This document shows positions 2,064 to 55,896 of a stretch of DNA of 64,000 bases, one piece after another (position 1 is the first letter of the stretch; the number at the start of each line of letters is the position of its first letter). The stretch spans positions 4,154,001-4,218,000 of the forward strand of contig NZ_LT629779.1 of the NCBI RefSeq assembly GCF_900105535.1, written 5' to 3'. Under the pieces are notes generated by a model that worked only from the letters and a program-made list of their open reading frames with translations, did no database searches and was not told where the DNA came from. The stretch comes from Pseudarthrobacter equi. GTDB taxonomy: Bacteria > Actinomycetota > Actinomycetes > Actinomycetales > Micrococcaceae. The translations under genes were made by a program, and so were the position numbers.

Positions 2064-2278
2064 GTTTCCCACTTTCCGGCTCCCCCAGCGGGAGCCATGT
2101 CCCACAAGGCGTACCCCCGGGGACGGTTCCTAAGCAACAGCTCCTATGCAAACATGCGCGCCGAAGGCACGTCCCGCACGCAGAATTGATGCGATCTTGA
2201 CCCAAACCTTACTGACCGCTGCAGTTGCGGGTCCACGCTGGACGAAGAAGGGCAAACCAGCTTGGGGAGCAGGAAGTC

Positions 2279-2755
2279 ATGGGAAACGAAACAGCATATG
2301 ACAAGGACGTCATCGCGGTGGGCGGGGTCCTCACGGACCAGCACCCGCTCGACTTCCACACCCTGGGGCTGGCCGGCTGCATTGACCGGCTGACCGGGCC
2401 CCTCCGCCAACGCGGGACCGCGGTCCGCTGGGATACTCCGCACTGGGGCATTGAGATCCCGGCGGACTGTGCGTCCCTGCTGTACCAGTCTGCACGCGAA
2501 GTGATCAGCAACGCCTACAAGTACTCGGACGCATCCGAACTCAGCGTGCAGCTTGCGGTGGTGGACCACGGGATCCGGATGAAAGTGGCCGACGACGGCA
2601 CGGGCTTTGATTGCAGCCGCGCCAACCGGGGGCGGCACCACGGCTACGGCCTCCGCCTGATGGCGGTTGCGGTTGAGGAAGCGGGCGGCTCCGTGGACAT
2701 CGACTCCCGCCCCGGCCACGGCACCTCGGTGACGGTCACCCTGCCGCTGGACTGA
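2279..2755 (+). CDS. Orphan HATPase-domain protein (NarL/DegS-type kinase C-terminal module)
   Basis: A 158-aa protein made almost entirely of a histidine-kinase-like ATPase domain. The N box is SAREVISNAYKYS, the G1 box VADDGTGFD and the G2 box HGYGLRLM, ending in GHGTSVTVTLPLD as in NarL-partner sensor kinases. No dimerisation/phosphoacceptor domain, sensor region or membrane segment is present, and no response regulator is next to it. The start at 2279 has GGAGCAGGAAG just upstream; the in-frame upstream extension lacks a ribosome site. It could be a stand-alone ATPase switch protein or the surviving half of a former kinase. Confidence 0.8.
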   Translation: MGNETAYDKDVIAVGGVLTDQHPLDFHTLGLAGCIDRLTGPLRQRGTAVRWDTPHWGIEIPADCASLLYQSAREVISNAYKYSDASELSVQLAVVDHGIRMKVADDGTGFDCSRANRGRHHGYGLRLMAVAVEEAGGSVDIDSRPGHGTSVTVTLPLD

Positions 2756-46010: not shown

Positions 46011-46171
46011 GATGGTTGCGCCATCAGTTGGGGCACTTTAGACCCGGGTTTGGGGACGCTGTCTGATGGCGCATCCGGTTTGCATACCGGCCGCATGGCA
46101 CCAGCACAGCAACGGCACAGCTGTGCCCGGGAACGTGGATGGAACAGATCCCCGAGCCTGAAGCAGGACCC

Positions 46172-47683
46172 ATGCGACGTTTCCCCGGTGCCATCCTTTC
46201 CTCCTCCGCCCTGGCGGTAGCCCTTGCCCTGACCGGGTGCGGTGTTGGGGCCGGCGCGGAGTCTTCCGGCACGCAGGCCACGTCCGCAGCGTCAGCCAGC
46301 GCGGGAGTGGATGCCGGCAACGGCACCACGGACACCACGACGCCGGACTCCACCCTTTTCACGGAGGGCGCCTCCCACACCGTCAGCGTCACGTGGAACG
46401 AGGACGACTACGCCGCGATGATCGCTGCCTATGAGGCCGACGGGTCGAAAGACTGGATCGCCGCGGACATCACCATCGACGGCACCACCGTGTCCAACGT
46501 GGGCGTGCGGCTCAAGGGCAACTCCACGCTTCGGAGCCTGAGCGGCAACGGCGCGGGTGGCGGCGGGATGGGCGGGAACGCGGCGTCGTCCAGGATCTCC
46601 TCCGACGTTCCAGAGTCCTTGCCCCTGCTGATCCGTTTCGACAAGTACGTGGACGGCCAGACCTACCAGGGGCTGGGCGAGGTGTCGTTGCGCCCCGGCT
46701 CCCCCGTCCTGAATGAGGCGCTGGCCCTTGCCCTCACGGGGGCCAGCGGTCAGGCCACGCAGAGGTACGCCTACACCACCTACTCGGTGAACGGCAGCCC
46801 CACCCAGACCCGGCTGCTGGTGGAAAACCCCGATGAGGACTACGCCGACTCCCTGTTCGATACCCCGGGAGTCCTCTACAAAGCCGATGCCGACTCCAGC
46901 TTCACCTACCAAGGCGACGACCTGGCCACCTACGAGGACCAGTTCAAGCAGCTCAACAACGGGGACAGCGAGACAGTCCAGCCCATCGTCGACTTCCTCA
47001 AGTGGCTGTCCGAAGCCACCGACGAGGAATTCGACGCCGGCCTGGCGGAGCGCGTGGATGTGGAGTCCTTCGCCCGCTACACCGCTACGATGAACCTGCT
47101 GGTCAACGGCGACGACATGGCCGGGCCCGGCCAGAACTACTACCTCTGGTACAGCCTGGACACCAAGAAGATCTCCGTCATTTCCTGGGACCTCAACCTC
47201 GCCATGACCGGCGACGCCACGGCATCGCCCGAGGCGCAGCTGTCCATCGGCGGTGGCGGCGGTGGCGGCGCAGGGAATCAGGGTGCGGGAGGCGGCATGC
47301 AGCCTCCCGGAACGGACGACGGCGGGTGGGCACCTTTTGCGGGAGCCGCAGCGGACGCTGACGGCACGGCAGGAGCAGCGGGCGGAACGGGTCCAGGAGC
47401 CGGAGCGGCCGCGGGGGCTGCAGCCGGTGGAGGAGGCCGGGGCGGCAACGAACTGAAGGAAAGGTTCCTGACTTCGGAGGCCTTCCAGTCAGTGTATGAC
47501 GCCGCCTACGCGGATCTTTACGCGCAGCTGTACGCCAGCGGAACCGCGGCCAGCCTCCTCGACTCAATTGCCGCCGTCGTACCCCTCAGCGACGGGCTCA
47601 CCGCCGAGGAACTGGCTGGTGAAACGCAGACCCTGCGCACTTTCATCCAGCAACGCACTGACGCGCTTAAGGACCAGGTTTAG
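46172..47683 (+). CDS. CotH-kinase-family lipoprotein
   Basis: 503 aa. A lipoprotein signal (MRRFPGAILSSSALAVALAL then TGC) precedes a CotH-like domain: VGVRLKGNSTLRS, LLIRFDKYVDGQTYQGL, LVENPDEDYADSLFD, the region ARYTATMNLLVNGDDMAGPGQ and the metal-site motif ISWDLNLAM. CotH proteins are atypical kinases that phosphorylate surface proteins in Bacillus; here the domain is outside the cell, so the substrate and phosphate donor are unclear. A Gly/Ala-rich stretch of about 70 residues (near 365-430) splits the C-terminal part. The start at 46172 gives the lipobox; 46139 is an in-frame alternative. Confidence 0.82.
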   Translation: MRRFPGAILSSSALAVALALTGCGVGAGAESSGTQATSAASASAGVDAGNGTTDTTTPDSTLFTEGASHTVSVTWNEDDYAAMIAAYEADGSKDWIAADITIDGTTVSNVGVRLKGNSTLRSLSGNGAGGGGMGGNAASSRISSDVPESLPLLIRFDKYVDGQTYQGLGEVSLRPGSPVLNEALALALTGASGQATQRYAYTTYSVNGSPTQTRLLVENPDEDYADSLFDTPGVLYKADADSSFTYQGDDLATYEDQFKQLNNGDSETVQPIVDFLKWLSEATDEEFDAGLAERVDVESFARYTATMNLLVNGDDMAGPGQNYYLWYSLDTKKISVISWDLNLAMTGDATASPEAQLSIGGGGGGGAGNQGAGGGMQPPGTDDGGWAPFAGAAADADGTAGAAGGTGPGAGAAAGAAAGGGGRGGNELKERFLTSEAFQSVYDAAYADLYAQLYASGTAASLLDSIAAVVPLSDGLTAEELAGETQTLRTFIQQRTDALKDQV

Positions 47684-50772: not shown

Positions 50773-51885
50773 ATGGTCTCTCCCCCTGAAGTTCGTCGTG
50801 CCGTTGTCATCGAGGATGACCCGGACATCCGCGGGCTCCTGGTCCGCGTGCTGACCAAGCAGGGCTTCGAAGTCACGGAGGCCGGTACGGGCCTGACCGG
50901 CGTCGAGGAAGTCCGGCGCAGCCAGCCGGACCTGGTCACGCTTGACCTGAACCTCCCGGACCTGGACGGCCTGGAAGTCTGCAAACTCCTCCGCGAATTT
51001 TCCGATGCGTTCATCGTCATGCTGACCGCCCGCGCGGACGAGCTGGACAAGCTGACGGGCCTGGACAACGGCGCCGATGAATACATCAGCAAGCCGTTCA
51101 GCCCGCGTGAACTGCAGTCACGGATCAACGCCCTGTTCCGCCGCCGGCCCTCCCCCGCCGCTGACACGGCATCGCGCAGCGAACTCCAGCGTGCCACCGA
51201 GGTCCAGCTGAGCCTCCTGCCCAAGGAGGACATCCGTGTTGAGGGGTACGACGTTGCCGGGGTCTTCCGTCCCTCACGCAGCGTGGGCGGGGACTTCTAC
51301 GACTGGTACCAGACACCCGAAGGCCTGCACCTGACCTTTGCCGATGCCATGGGCAAGGGCATGGGTGCGGCCCTGATCGCCGCTACGGTCCGCGCCGTCA
51401 TGCGCTCCACCGGCCGCCGGCAGGACCTGGACGGCGCGTTCGCCTCCGCCAGCAAGGCGATCGCCACGGACCTTGATTCCTCCAACTCCTTTGTTACCCT
51501 CTTCCACGCCCGGCTGGACGCGGCGTCGGGCAAGGTCAGCTATGTCGACGCCGGCCACGGGCTCGCGCTGCACGTCGAGTCGGGCGGGGCAGCACACCGC
51601 CTTCCTTCGGGAGGGCCGCCGGTGGGGGCCTGGTCCGGGTCCGAGTGGCCCCAGTCCGGCCTCGACCTGGCGCCCGGCGACTGCCTGGTGGTGGTCAGTG
51701 ACGGCGTGCTGGATGTCTTCGAATCCGTGGAGGACTTCACGGAGGCCGTCCGGCGGGCCACCCAGGCCGAGGATTCCGCGCAGGCGGCCAGCAGCGCCAT
51801 CCTGTCCCTCGCCCCGGCCGAGACCGCTGAGGACGATGTGACGGTGGTTGTGGTCCGCAGGCTCCCCCAGGATGTGGCGGTATGA
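50773..51885 (+). CDS. Response regulator-PP2C (RsbU-like) serine phosphatase
   Basis: 370 aa. The N-terminal receiver has acidic IEDDPD, phosphoacceptor Asp58 in LVTLDLNLPD and Lys107 in ISKPFSP. A short linker leads to a PP2C/SpoIIE domain (about 140-365) with GGDFYDWY, DAMGKGMGAALIAA, DAGHGLAL and VVSDGVLDVFES supplying the metal aspartates. Phosphorylation of the receiver should switch on dephosphorylation of a STAS protein, and a STAS gene lies two genes downstream. The next gene starts at ATGA overlapping its stop. The neighbouring GAF histidine kinase is a plausible phosphodonor. Confidence 0.91.
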   Translation: MVSPPEVRRAVVIEDDPDIRGLLVRVLTKQGFEVTEAGTGLTGVEEVRRSQPDLVTLDLNLPDLDGLEVCKLLREFSDAFIVMLTARADELDKLTGLDNGADEYISKPFSPRELQSRINALFRRRPSPAADTASRSELQRATEVQLSLLPKEDIRVEGYDVAGVFRPSRSVGGDFYDWYQTPEGLHLTFADAMGKGMGAALIAATVRAVMRSTGRRQDLDGAFASASKAIATDLDSSNSFVTLFHARLDAASGKVSYVDAGHGLALHVESGGAAHRLPSGGPPVGAWSGSEWPQSGLDLAPGDCLVVVSDGVLDVFESVEDFTEAVRRATQAEDSAQAASSAILSLAPAETAEDDVTVVVVRRLPQDVAV

Positions 51886-53858
51886 CCCGGTTCTGGACCC
51901 GCGTGGTGGTGGTGCTGACCGTTATCACCGGCGTGAACTACATCGCCTGGCGGTGGATGGCCTCCCTGAACTGGGAAGCCTGGTGGATCGCCCTGCCGCT
52001 GGTCATCGCCGAAACGTACAGTCTCATCGACGTGATGCTGTTCGGCATGACGGTGTGGAACCTGAAGATCCGCAAGGGCGCCCCGGAGCCACCGGCCGAT
52101 GCCACGGTGGACGTCTTCATCACCACGTATAACGAGGACCTTGACATGGTGCTCACCACGGCGCTGGCGGCCCAGCGGATCCGGCATCCGCACAGCACCT
52201 GGATCCTCGACGACGGCGCCCGCCCCGAGATGAAGGCACTCGCCGAACGGCACGGGCTGGGTTATGTGACCCGCAGCGAGGACTGGACCAAAGACCTGCC
52301 CCGCCACGCCAAGGCGGGGAACCTGAACAATGCGCTGATGCAGACCGACGGCGAGTTCCTGCTGATCCTGGATGCGGACCAGATCCCCGAACCGGACATC
52401 CTGGAAAAGACGCTGGGCTACTTCAACAACAGCAAGGTGGCGCTGGTCCAGACCCCGCAGTACTTCAGCAACGTCCCGGCCGACGACCCCCTGGGCAGCC
52501 AGGCCCCGCTGTTCTACGGCCCCATCCAGCAGGGCAAGGACGGCTGGAACGCTGCCTTCTTCTGCGGCTCCAACGCCATCCTGCGCCGCGAAGCGCTGAT
52601 GCAGCTGGGCCTGGTGGGCTACGTGAAGGAGACCGAGAAGAGCATCCGCCGCGCGCTGGCAGCCTCCCGGCAGGCCATCCGGCAGGCGCGCAAGTCCACG
52701 GACATGGACTCGCTGGTGGCGCAGGTGCTGGACGAGGTGGAAGCCGCCACTGTTGAAGCGCAGCAGGAACTGGACTCCGGCATGGCGCTCAGCGAGATCA
52801 CCTACCGGGTGCGCCGCCGCGTGGACACCGCCGTCCAGACCCTGGTGCAGGCAGACGTCGAGGCACTGCAGTCGGACCTCGAGGAAATCGCGGCCATGGA
52901 ACTCGCCCACGTTGGCGAGGCCGGCGTTCCGGTGGTGGCCGACGACGCTGTGCAGCGCATGTCCGCCCGCGACTGGTCCCCGCTGGGCGCCCTCGAATCG
53001 GTCCAGGCCGTCCTGGATGCGCTCTCGGTGGAACGCAACGACGAAGCCCAGCCGATCATGCCGCTGGCCACCATTTCGGTCACCGAGGACATGGCCACCG
53101 CCATGCGCATGCACGCCATGGGCTGGCAGAGCGTCTACCACCACGAGATCCTGGCGTACGGCCTGGCGCCGGAGGACCTGAAGACCATGCTCACCCAGCG
53201 GCTCCGCTGGGCCCAGGGCACCATCCAGGTGCTGCTCCGGGAGAACCCGCTGGTGCAGAAGGGCCTGAAAATCGGCCAGCGGCTGATGTACTTCGCCACC
53301 ATGTGGACCTACCTGAGCGGCTTCGCGGCGGTTATCTACTTCGCAGCCCCCATCATCTACCTGCTGCTGGGCATCCTGCCCGTCACCAGCCTCAGCTGGG
53401 ACTTCTTCATCCGGTTCATTCCGTTCATGGTGGTCAACCAGCTGCTGTTCGCGGTGGCCGGCCGCGGCATTCCCACGTGGCGCGGCCAGCAGTACAGCCT
53501 CGCCCTGTTCCCCACGTGGATCAAGGCGTGTACGACGGCGGCCCGCAACGTCTGGTTCGGCCGTCCCCTGGGGTTCGCGGTGACGCCCAAGGCGCGCCAA
53601 AGCGGCGGACCCAGCTGGAGCCTGATCCAGCCCCAGATCGTGGTGTCCATCCTGCTGGCCGTGGCCGCCGTCGTCGGAATTGTCCGCCTGGCCACCGGCC
53701 TGGCAGAACCGCTGGGCACCCTGGTGAACGTGGCCTGGGTGATCTTCGACCTGGTGGTCATGTCCATCCTGGTCCGCGCCGTGCTCTACAAGGGCTTTGA
53801 ACCGCCCGCAGAATCCGCAGAACCAACACAATCCGAGAGGAATCCCGATGGAGTTTAG
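51882..53858 (+). CDS. Cellulose-synthase-like family 2 glycosyltransferase with internal insertion
   Basis: 658 aa, membrane polysaccharide synthase. Two N-terminal helices precede the GT2 domain: VFITTYNED, the first aspartates ILDDG (110-112), DAD (164-166), FFCGSNAILRR (227-236), TED (401-403, catalytic base) and QRLRWAQG (439-446). About four C-terminal helices follow, then GFAVTPKA. Between the CGS and TED motifs lies about 150 mostly helical, acidic residues (about 250-395) where BcsA-type enzymes have only a short loop. No PilZ domain is present, so direct c-di-GMP control is not expected. The product is unknown. Translation is coupled to the phosphatase and the STAS gene. Confidence 0.88.
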   Translation: MTRFWTRVVVVLTVITGVNYIAWRWMASLNWEAWWIALPLVIAETYSLIDVMLFGMTVWNLKIRKGAPEPPADATVDVFITTYNEDLDMVLTTALAAQRIRHPHSTWILDDGARPEMKALAERHGLGYVTRSEDWTKDLPRHAKAGNLNNALMQTDGEFLLILDADQIPEPDILEKTLGYFNNSKVALVQTPQYFSNVPADDPLGSQAPLFYGPIQQGKDGWNAAFFCGSNAILRREALMQLGLVGYVKETEKSIRRALAASRQAIRQARKSTDMDSLVAQVLDEVEAATVEAQQELDSGMALSEITYRVRRRVDTAVQTLVQADVEALQSDLEEIAAMELAHVGEAGVPVVADDAVQRMSARDWSPLGALESVQAVLDALSVERNDEAQPIMPLATISVTEDMATAMRMHAMGWQSVYHHEILAYGLAPEDLKTMLTQRLRWAQGTIQVLLRENPLVQKGLKIGQRLMYFATMWTYLSGFAAVIYFAAPIIYLLLGILPVTSLSWDFFIRFIPFMVVNQLLFAVAGRGIPTWRGQQYSLALFPTWIKACTTAARNVWFGRPLGFAVTPKARQSGGPSWSLIQPQIVVSILLAVAAVVGIVRLATGLAEPLGTLVNVAWVIFDLVVMSILVRAVLYKGFEPPAESAEPTQSERNPDGV

Positions 53859-54180
53859 CTATGAGGTCAAGGACTCATATGCCGAGGTCAAGGCGGACGG
53901 GCGGCTGAACATGGTGTCCGCGCCCAAGCTCCGCGAGTTCGTCACGGACGTGATCGCCGGCGGGTCCAACCGGATCGTGGTCAACCTGGAGAACACCGCC
54001 TTCATGGATTCGTCCGGGCTGGGCGCCCTCATTGGCTGCCTGAAGGCTGCGCGGCAGGCCGGCGGGGACCTGCGGATCGCGGCAGTCCAGCCGCAGGTGA
54101 AGATGGTCCTGCAGCTCACCAGCATGGACAAGGTCCTCACGGCCTACCCGTCGGTCGAAGAGGCGTTCGGCAATGACTGA
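53848..54180 (+). CDS. STAS-domain anti-sigma-factor antagonist
   Basis: 110 aa, a single STAS domain. The phosphorylatable serine region is NTAFMDSSGLGALIGCLKAA, and RIVVNLEN and PQVKMVLQLTSMDKV complete the fold. When dephosphorylated such proteins bind and neutralise a HATPase partner. The start overlaps the end of the glycosyltransferase by 11 bp, with GAGAGGAATCCCG as ribosome site, and its end overlaps the HATPase gene by 8 bp. Confidence 0.92.
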   Translation: MEFSYEVKDSYAEVKADGRLNMVSAPKLREFVTDVIAGGSNRIVVNLENTAFMDSSGLGALIGCLKAARQAGGDLRIAAVQPQVKMVLQLTSMDKVLTAYPSVEEAFGND

Positions 54181-54598
54181 AGTGCTCGCCTCGCGCAGCT
54201 TCCGCGGGCTCGCCACCGAAGACGCCATCAACGATGTCCACAACGACATGGACAGCCTGTGGCTCGATGTGCCGTTCGTGAATGACATGGACCAGATGAC
54301 GTTCACCACGGCGGTGATCGAGTCAGCGTCCAACATCGTCCAGCACGCCGAACCGGCGGGCGCGGATCCGGTGGAACTCGGCGTGGACATCACCGTGGAG
54401 CCGCTGCTGCTCCAGGCCCGCGTGAGCGCCTACAACGCCAAGCCGCCCTTCGGCCCCATGGAACCGGCAACGCCCGGCGAGGATGCCGAGTCCGGCCGCG
54501 GGCTTGCCCTGATCCAGGCCCTGGTGACCACCGTGACGTTCGAACGGCAGGACGGCACCAGCACCTGGGTCCTGTCCCGCACGTCTTCCCAGGACTGA
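54173..54598 (+). CDS. RsbW/SpoIIAB-type HATPase (anti-sigma-like serine kinase)
   Basis: 141 aa, a GHKL ATPase of the serine-kinase type. The N box is VIESASNIVQHAEP and the G box region DAESGRGLALIQAL. It is predicted to phosphorylate the STAS protein just upstream and to bind a target in competition with it. No sigma factor gene is within the window, so the target may be an unlinked sigma factor or a non-transcriptional partner. It is the last gene of the four-gene overlapping operon. Confidence 0.88.
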   Translation: MTEVLASRSFRGLATEDAINDVHNDMDSLWLDVPFVNDMDQMTFTTAVIESASNIVQHAEPAGADPVELGVDITVEPLLLQARVSAYNAKPPFGPMEPATPGEDAESGRGLALIQALVTTVTFERQDGTSTWVLSRTSSQD

Positions 54599-54669: not shown

Positions 54670-55896
54670 CTACTGCGCGGCGGGGAACAGCACTGAGACG
54701 GTGGCTCCACCGCCTGGAGTTTCACTGATGCTCAGTTCGCCTCCGTGTGACTGGGCAATCCGCTGGCAGGTAGCCAGGCCCAGGCCTGTTCCCGGGCCGT
54801 CGCCGGGCCGGTGAAGCCGGACCAGCGGTTCCACCGCCCGTCCCCGGTCCGCCGGCCTGATGCCTTTGCCGTTGTCCGCCACATGGACGGTGACGCCGCC
54901 AGGGCAGGTGGTGGCGGTGATGGCCACTTCCAGGCCCCGCCCGGGCTCCCGGTAGTTCAGCGAGTTGGCCAGCAGGTTCTGGATCAGGGTGCGCAGCTGC
55001 TGGCGGTCGGCGGTGAGTTCCGCATCCTCGCACAGGAAACCGCTGCCCAGCCCCAGGTCCACCCCGAGGTCCTGGGCCGCTTCTGCCGTGACGGCCAGCA
55101 GGGACACCCGCTCCAGATGCAGCTCCCCATCCGCGCGGGCGTAGTTGAGCACGTCTTCGAGGGTTCCCAGCATGCGCCGGCCGCCCGTTCCGATCAGTCC
55201 CAGGTATTCGGCTGCCGGGTGGTCCGGGGCCATGCCGGGATCGTCCTCGGCCAGCTCAACGTAGCCCAGGATGGTGGTCAGCGGAGCGCGGAGGTCATGG
55301 CTCACGCGGCCGGCGAACTCGGACAGCATGGCGTTGCTGCGACGCAGCTCCACCAGGGCATGGTCAAGCTGGAGCGTCCGGTGCTGGAGTTCGAGGAGTT
55401 CCACCACCTGCTGGGCCAGCACCTCCACCAGGTCTATCTGCTCCGGCGTGGGGAGTTCGGCCTGGTCCGAAAAGACGCACAGCGAACCCAGCACCAGGCC
55501 ATTAGACGTTCGCAGCGGCACGGAGGCGTAGAAGCGGACATCCGCGATTTCCCCCGTGACGAACGGGTTGGCGGCAAAGCGCGGGTCCAGGGAAGCGTCC
55601 CGCACCACAGTGGTTCCTGGATCCAGGAACACGGAGGCGCACATGGAGTCCTCGCGCGAGCAGATGCCGGCCGCGGTCCCGGACGCCGCAATCTGCAGCT
55701 GCTGGTCCGAGGTGATGATGTTGACCACGCCGTACGGCACCCCGCACAGTGATGCCGCCACGCGGACCAGGTTGTCGAGGGCGCCCTGCGCCTGGCGGTC
55801 AATAAGTATGGGGATAGTCCCCTCGTGGGCCGGCAGTAATCCGTATTCCTGCAGGCCAAGATCGCGTCCGGCGTCCTGATCGGTCAGCGTCTGCAT
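54670..55896 (-). CDS. GAF-domain sensor histidine kinase
   Basis: 408 aa, soluble. The GAF domain (about 30-170) includes GVPYGVVNIITSDQQLQIA and MCASVFLDPGTTVVRDASLD, the common EDSMC..-like input fold. A short coiled coil precedes the HisKA H box FAGRVSHDLRAPLTTILGYVE, and the HATPase domain has LIQNLLANSLNY, VADNGKGI and GTGLGLATC. No membrane segment is present, so the signal is intracellular. It lacks its own response-regulator gene; it is convergent with the PP2C response regulator operon, which may be its output. Confidence 0.9.
   Translation of the reverse strand: MQTLTDQDAGRDLGLQEYGLLPAHEGTIPILIDRQAQGALDNLVRVAASLCGVPYGVVNIITSDQQLQIAASGTAAGICSREDSMCASVFLDPGTTVVRDASLDPRFAANPFVTGEIADVRFYASVPLRTSNGLVLGSLCVFSDQAELPTPEQIDLVEVLAQQVVELLELQHRTLQLDHALVELRRSNAMLSEFAGRVSHDLRAPLTTILGYVELAEDDPGMAPDHPAAEYLGLIGTGGRRMLGTLEDVLNYARADGELHLERVSLLAVTAEAAQDLGVDLGLGSGFLCEDAELTADRQQLRTLIQNLLANSLNYREPGRGLEVAITATTCPGGVTVHVADNGKGIRPADRGRAVEPLVRLHRPGDGPGTGLGLATCQRIAQSHGGELSISETPGGGATVSVLFPAAQ

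Follow-up and report, generated by a model that had tools for sequence, protein, structure and literature searches.

A putative partner-switching operon built around a BcsA-like polysaccharide synthase in Pseudarthrobacter equi: comparative sequence analysis suggests the synthase itself as output

Introduction

Several partner switches which control an enzyme have been described. In the SiaABCD system of Pseudomonas aeruginosa, unphosphorylated SiaC binds and activates SiaD, which is encoded in the same operon, while phosphorylation blocks this binding (PMC8457831, PMC7647112). The enzyme-controlling switches around SiaD, HsbD and BgrR all have diguanylate cyclases as targets (PMC8457831); in the Bgr switch of Sinorhizobium meliloti a STAS protein acts on such a cyclase, and cyclic diguanylate (c-di-GMP) activates beta-glucan synthesis (PMC8457831). 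In Vibrio fischeri, biofilm formation is restored by the S56A but not by the S56D exchange in the STAS protein SypA (PMC4517449), and the literature leaves unanswered what SypA and other STAS proteins that do not act on sigma factors bind directly (PMC8256260, PMC4517449, PMC11112999). A glycosyltransferase joined to an N-terminal STAS domain is known from Anabaena (all4160; PMC8256260). All these statements follow excerpts of the cited papers. Among the papers listed by searches of the open-licence literature of PubMed Central, judged by titles and the beginnings of abstracts, we found none in which a cellulose-synthase-like enzyme is the direct target of a partner switch, which is not proof of absence. 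Here we analyse a four-gene operon of Pseudarthrobacter equi which encloses a BcsA-like synthase between the genes of a putative partner switch. It is located in a stretch of 64,000 nucleotides (contig NZ_LT629779.1, positions 4,154,001 to 4,218,000), in the following referred to as the window.

Results

The operon and its synthase

The four genes lie on the forward strand, and their consecutive open reading frames overlap by 4, 11 and 8 base pairs. Coordinates and Pfam matches agree with the gene types which had been assigned in the initial annotation of this DNA:

50773..51885, + strand: receiver-PP2C phosphatase of the SpoIIE/RsbU type, 370 amino acids; PF00072 (96.5 bits) and PF07228 (114 bits), receiver at about residues 11-118 and phosphatase at about residues 183-363
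51882..53858, + strand: BcsA-like processive GT2 synthase, 658 amino acids; Pfam matches Cellulose_synt (88 bits) and Glyco_trans_2_3 (67 bits)
52602..53075, + strand: insert region of the synthase, residues 241-398, delimited by the split BcsA alignment, an insert profile and a structural model; proposed STAS docking site
53848..54180, + strand: STAS-only protein with ATG start, 110 amino acids; PF01740 (72 bits), predicted phospho-serine Ser55
54173..54598, + strand: RsbW/SpoIIAB-type HATPase, putative STAS serine kinase, 141 amino acids; PF13581 (HATPase_c_2, 38 bits, cut-off 27.4)

From the comparisons described below we consider it likely that these genes form a partner-switching module which has the membrane polysaccharide synthase itself as its output; the exact docking site of the STAS protein is proposed with less confidence than direct STAS control as such.

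The synthase shows the GT2 fold and all of the motifs D, DxD, TED, QxxRW and FxVTxK, and reaches 353 bits with the CelA equivalog model TIGR03030. The PilZ domain, whose absence had been pointed out in the initial annotation, is indeed found neither in the Pfam scan of the synthase nor in the domain lists of 240 proteins. BcsA can be aligned to the synthase in two pieces only (residues 3-245 and 395-630), and about 150 additional residues, at about 246-394, are located after the FFCGSN and before the TED motif. The span between these motifs comprises 182 residues in the window synthase versus 32 in five insert-less GT2 relatives. The insert is predicted to fold into a three-helix bundle, connected by a flexible segment to two short helices which directly precede the TED helix (residues 400-412). 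No Pfam family matches it above cut-off, and a fold comparison with the insert alone was uninformative. The insert is perhaps the site at which the STAS protein docks.

Conservation of the module

We built a profile of the insert from 12 rows. In a sample of 396 genomes of the order it finds 24 matching genomes, belonging to 10 of 109 genera, and in a sample of 396 genomes of the phylum it finds three, one of them weakly; the window genome is included in both counts. A scan of named genomes yielded 390 related stretches. Among the best 80 of these, Arthrobacter, Pseudarthrobacter, Nocardioides, Cellulomonas, Geodermatophilus, Pseudonocardia, Actinomycetospora, Microbacterium, Clavibacter, Georgenia, Ornithinimicrobium, Serinicoccus and Prescottella are represented, besides others. 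Within the window's own genus a synthase of this family is encoded in 133 of 206 genomes (E 1e-60, using as query a sister-branch synthase, see below). Plasmids gave no match at E 1e-100 to the synthase or to a synthase-STAS fusion, so that there is no sign of the module being plasmid-borne.

We examined 172 loci, of which 165 contain a GT2 match of more than 90 bits (the seven left out are L041 and L204-L209) and 151 remain after dropping those at least 99% identical to another. The sample is biased towards insert-bearing relatives, since three of the searches were aimed at these. A partner gene was counted as nearby if located within 4.5 kb of the synthase gene. By this measure, a STAS gene accompanies the synthase at 127 of the 135 non-redundant loci with an insert: STAS, HATPase and PP2C genes are all present at 103 loci, STAS and HATPase genes at five, and a STAS gene only at 19, while seven loci are devoid of STAS and one reaches the contig end. 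In contrast, none of 15 insert-less GT2 controls has a STAS, HATPase or PP2C gene nearby. Two synthase genes (L036 and L037, from genomes G030 and G026) are split between frames; L037 was scored insert-less only due to its frameshift and is not among the controls. At 93 of the 103 loci with all four genes, the order PP2C-GT2-STAS-HATPase is kept on one strand. This arrangement spans actinobacterial families, is not due to chance and, contrary to a possibility considered in the initial annotation, is not peculiar to a single genome.

The phosphorylation site of the STAS protein

The DSSG motif of the window STAS protein begins at residue 54, which makes Ser55 the predicted phospho-serine. In all 108 STAS proteins encoded next to a HATPase, the position of the SpoIIAA phospho-serine is occupied by serine preceded by aspartate. 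Where no HATPase gene is nearby, this serine is lost at 18 of 19 loci, being replaced by alanine in ten and by proline in eight cases. After thinning at 80% GT2 identity, serine is present in 44 of 44 HATPase-linked versus one of five HATPase-less STAS proteins. That the phosphorylation site is lost where no kinase is linked would indicate that the synthase needs the STAS protein itself, and needs it unphosphorylated.

In a tree of the GT2 sequences, calculated without L036, L037, L127 and L226 and showing long outgroup branches, the serine-less STAS proteins have two origins, namely a branch of 15 which is sister to all full modules, and L032, which is nested inside these. The sister branch (L033-L035, L110-L112 and L210-L220) is characterised by a single serine-less STAS gene and adjoining GH26 and GH16 hydrolase genes. 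Over the compared span its inserts, often shorter, measure 125-169 residues versus 161-181 in full modules.

STAS domains fused to the synthase

A search with the sister-branch synthase L217 gave 2911 homologues. Among the best 120 of these, 46 carry a C-terminal STAS domain on the synthase chain, the fusion proteins including ones from Mycolicibacterium and Pseudoclavibacter. In these 46 domains the site corresponding to the phospho-serine is mostly proline (39), and the preceding aspartate is replaced in the contexts seen. Among the loci surveyed for this, the branch to which the window synthase belongs yielded no fusion. A motif RxxGG[DE]xR, which is absent from SpoIIAA, occurs in 125 of 127 separate STAS proteins, whether kinase-linked or not, and in 38 of the 46 fused domains; the window protein carries it as RxxGGDLR. 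This motif is a candidate for a STAS surface facing the synthase. The operon STAS protein is the only stand-alone one of the genome; the other STAS match lies in a frame of 591 amino acids which, given its length, we take to be probably a SulP transporter.

Kinase, phosphatase and signal input

The profile of the HATPase family matches RsbW (6m36, 2.3e-11) and SpoIIAB, whereas the window HATPase as single query retrieves neither from the PDB. Among the residues which we take to bind ATP, the Glu, Asn and His of the N-box are present in 108 of 108 members, and the G2 motif is nearly invariant. A further stand-alone HATPase of 176 amino acids is encoded at 2225-2755 (+ strand) of the window; by eye it resembles a DesK/NarX-type fragment, and its HATPase_c_2 match is weak.

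The phosphatase has the receiver and PP2C motifs with their presumed catalytic residues. No other strong SpoIIE match exists in the genome; a further one is partial and reaches 28 bits at a cut-off of 25. The sensor domain of the phosphatase is GAF at 48, a receiver at 44 and neither of these at 11 of the 103 full loci; hence, the input of the switch varies while its core stays. A histidine kinase gene is found within 4 kb at 23 of the 44 receiver-type loci versus three of the 48 GAF-type loci. This enrichment fits a role as partner of the receiver for the kinase adjacent to the operon:

54670..55896, - strand: GAF-HisKA-HATPase histidine kinase (Pfam), 408 amino acids, convergent with the operon; candidate kinase of the receiver

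Sigma factors

The initial annotation had stated that no sigma factor gene is present. In agreement with this, the genome's two Sigma70_r3 matches both lie outside the window; extracytoplasmic function (ECF) type factors, which are devoid of Sigma70_r3, were not searched for. The genome encodes one unlinked candidate target for a classic anti-sigma switch:

L230:1372-2301 (G000:C1:908371-909297): SigB/F/G-type sigma factor (TIGR02980)

According to the genome-wide matches, neither HATPase_c_2 nor STAS is encoded within 30 kb of this gene. Over the 206 genomes of the genus, synthase and sigma factor are both present in 105, the synthase only in 28, the sigma factor only in 35 and neither in 38. 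As the sigma search at E 1e-25 is weak on its own, PF04539 (Sigma70_r3) was run as a second test. In three positive controls (G000, G748 and G021) it detects the second sigma factor at 50, 40 and 31 bits, respectively, the last value implying that a divergent sigma factor could be missed. Of the 28 synthase-only genomes, 25 yield a single match over the cut-off, two (G951 and G880) a second match which is weak but likewise over the cut-off, and one (G887) a partial match only; except for G000, the assignment of single matches to RpoD relies on score and frame length. In 23 genomes the synthase, STAS and HATPase genes occur together, in 19 of them along with PP2C, while only one Sigma70_r3 protein, RpoD-like, exceeds the cut-off. 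This count leaves aside G859, G887 and G951 (loci not read), G005 (no HATPase nearby) and G880 (weak second sigma factor), and includes G916 (second match below cut-off) and G030 (frameshifted synthase). Thus, a detectable SigB/F/G-type sigma factor does not accompany the module in every genome, and the module is maintained without a recognisable sigma target. The STAS serine is kept at all 20 loci collected for this comparison.

Elsewhere in the window (46139-47683, + strand) a secreted-looking protein of 514 amino acids is encoded which by eye resembles CotH kinases.

Discussion

Proposed mechanism

The sequences show which genes make up the set and that it is conserved; they also show the insert, the link of the serine to a neighbouring kinase gene, the fusions and the operons in genomes without a detectable SigB/F/G-type sigma factor. 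From these we infer that STAS protein and synthase touch in the window strain, and likewise the docking site, the polarity of the switch, the enzymatic activities and the polymer. In the mechanism which we propose, a signal would lead to phosphorylation of the receiver, probably by the neighbouring histidine kinase, upon which the receiver-PP2C protein would remove the phosphate from the phosphorylated STAS protein and turn synthesis on. The unphosphorylated STAS protein would dock on the synthase, perhaps at the insert preceding the TED helix, and would be needed for activity, thereby filling the role which PilZ and c-di-GMP play in BcsA. Phosphorylation of STAS Ser55 by the HATPase would remove the STAS protein from the synthase and turn synthesis off. 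Most likely, the unphosphorylated STAS protein is hence an activating subunit of the synthase. This polarity is suggested by the serine-less and fused STAS proteins, as a permanent inhibitor would make little sense, and by the behaviour of the S56A and S56D variants of SypA. Somewhat less assured, though in our view still favoured, is the wider proposition that in an actinobacterial synthase family control via c-di-GMP and PilZ has been replaced by an RsbV-like STAS protein which is switched by RsbU- and RsbW-type partners and acts as an allosteric subunit on a dedicated insert, and that in the sister branch this STAS protein has become permanent, often fused and mostly serine-less.

Alternative explanations

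The initial annotation had left it undecided whether the synthase is gated directly or through an unlinked target, and had named an unlinked sigma factor as the possible sole partner of the HATPase. If the operon encoded such a classic anti-sigma switch, the HATPase would sequester an unlinked SigB/F/G-type sigma factor until the STAS protein frees it; the sigma regulon, perhaps including the operon, would be the output, and the synthase would merely be co-transcribed. The strain does encode a sigma factor of this type and offers no other obvious anti-sigma factor for it, since only two of the 20 HATPase_c_2 matches in the genome lie in frames of less than 400 amino acids and that of the operon is the best. 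In addition, sigma factor and synthase co-occur positively over the 206 genomes. Yet in 23 genomes in which synthase, STAS and HATPase genes are all present, the one Sigma70_r3 protein that passes the cut-off is RpoD-like, and in 35 genomes the sigma factor occurs without the synthase. Moreover, the STAS protein is retained beside the synthase where no HATPase is nearby and is fused to it in relatives, and the insert in the synthase would be left unexplained. We therefore regard a purely anti-sigma role as unlikely, though for this strain it is a serious rival; the fusions, the serine-less STAS proteins and the genomes without a detectable SigB/F/G-type sigma factor favour direct gating by the STAS protein. 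The absence of switch genes near the 15 insert-less GT2 controls points to the synthase as well, and so does the finding that the operon encodes both the sole stand-alone STAS protein and the sole strongly matching SpoIIE phosphatase of the genome. A further conceivable arrangement puts the synthase in the sigma factor's place, with the HATPase touching and inhibiting it and the STAS protein only titrating the HATPase. The gene set would be the same, and the insert is longer on average in the HATPase-bearing branch. However, long inserts are also found in L032 and in some of the sister branch, where a HATPase is missing nearby, and a pure titrator would be useless at the 19 HATPase-less loci at which the STAS protein is kept, as well as in the relatives in which it is fused. 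As, furthermore, RxxGG[DE]xR persists in kinase-less and fused STAS proteins alike, this arrangement appears highly improbable to us.

A variant of direct STAS control, whose probability overlaps with that of gating, deserves more credit than either of these, even if we hold it to be rather doubtful: the STAS protein may serve the stability or assembly of the synthase, with phosphorylation setting assembly or turnover instead of catalysis. The STAS protein matches 6zy2, a lipid-asymmetry ABC transporter in which, as we assume, a STAS protein is a subunit of a membrane machine, and the fused domains mostly lack the serine (39 of the 46 among the best 120 of 2911 homologues). By sequence, this variant is indistinguishable from gating, the retention of the serine in 108 of 108 cases saying only that regulation matters.

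Several observations weigh against direct control of the synthase by the STAS protein. The unlinked gene of a SigB/F/G-type sigma factor, located at 0.91 Mb of the contig, has to be mentioned here, although its TIGR02980 score (217.6 bits) is under the cut-off of 234. Its association with the synthase (odds ratio 4.1, p 9e-6, uncorrected for relatedness) either speaks against direct gating or reflects shared ancestry. Given the two origins on the tree, the serine result represents two or three events and not 18, and serine loss and fusions, taken together, likewise amount to two or three events which fall mainly into one sister branch. As the fusions occur in that branch, the contact in the window strain is deduced by homology, and the fusions themselves are known from protein sequences alone. 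Seven of the 46 fused domains have serine at the phosphorylation site, and L105 keeps the serine beside an insert-bearing synthase with neither HATPase nor PP2C nearby. Within the genus, a synthase of the sister branch occurs in 20 genomes, each of which encodes an ordinary copy besides; a HATPase may thus be present elsewhere in such genomes. Seven insert-bearing synthases (L029, L106, L161, L178, L183, L222 and L226) have no STAS gene nearby; in five cases (L029, L222, L161 taken as L223, L226 and L106) a further synthase copy of the genome does have STAS and HATPase nearby. The controls without the insert are only distantly related, and one of them (L203) comes from a contig of 5.7 kb. Finally, the aspartate of the HATPase G1 motif is alanine in the window protein and 51 of 108 members (Asp in 46, Glu in seven), for which reason kinase activity is not assured. 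This exchange may be associated with an altered use of the nucleotide or with a loss of kinase activity.

Polymer

A GH26 gene is nearby in 27 of 108 full modules, at 18 of 19 STAS-only loci and at six of seven STAS-less copies, and a GH16 gene at 17 of 19 STAS-only loci. Based on the substrates which we presume for both hydrolase families, these neighbours suggest that the polymer is a beta-glucan, a glucomannan or similar.

Comparison with known systems

If the proposed mechanism is true, processive polysaccharide synthases can be gated by a further route which needs no second messenger. The module could also answer in vitro the question of the direct target posed by SypA, as its proteins form a conserved set for which the naturally fused and serine-less forms can serve as controls. 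From BcsA, the synthase differs in the absence of PilZ, in the helical insert which adds about 150 residues ahead of TED and in its TIGR03030 score, which at 353 bits is far under the cut-off of 699. Going by their description in the excerpts cited above, the known partner switches resemble the present operon in different respects. all4160 likewise unites glycosyltransferase and STAS in one protein, its STAS domain being N-terminal whereas that of the fusions reported here is C-terminal; the likeness is one of description only. SypE/SypA is similar in that control of a polysaccharide is exerted by a STAS protein, active when unphosphorylated, together with a response regulator which has both serine kinase and phosphatase activity (PMC4517449, PMC8256260, PMC11112999). 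There, however, a single bifunctional regulator is at work, and the excerpts describe neither a synthase insert nor a synthase-STAS fusion. The Bgr switch, too, ends in beta-glucan synthesis, while in the present case the synthase is devoid of PilZ and the four-gene operon contains no cyclase. SiaABCD resembles it in its layout: the enzyme under control is encoded in one operon with a PP2C phosphatase, a kinase and a STAS-like phosphoprotein which act on it. At 93 of 103 loci of the present family an enzyme gene, the putative target, is placed inside the switch operon. In SiaABCD, the switch protein belongs to DUF1987 and the target is a diguanylate cyclase, whereas here a true STAS protein (PF01740) is present, the GT2 synthase is the proposed target and no second messenger would be involved. 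Enzyme-controlling switches, and beta-glucan synthesis controlled by a switch via c-di-GMP, are thus known already; what the present comparison suggests as new is a partner switch acting on the polymer synthase itself.

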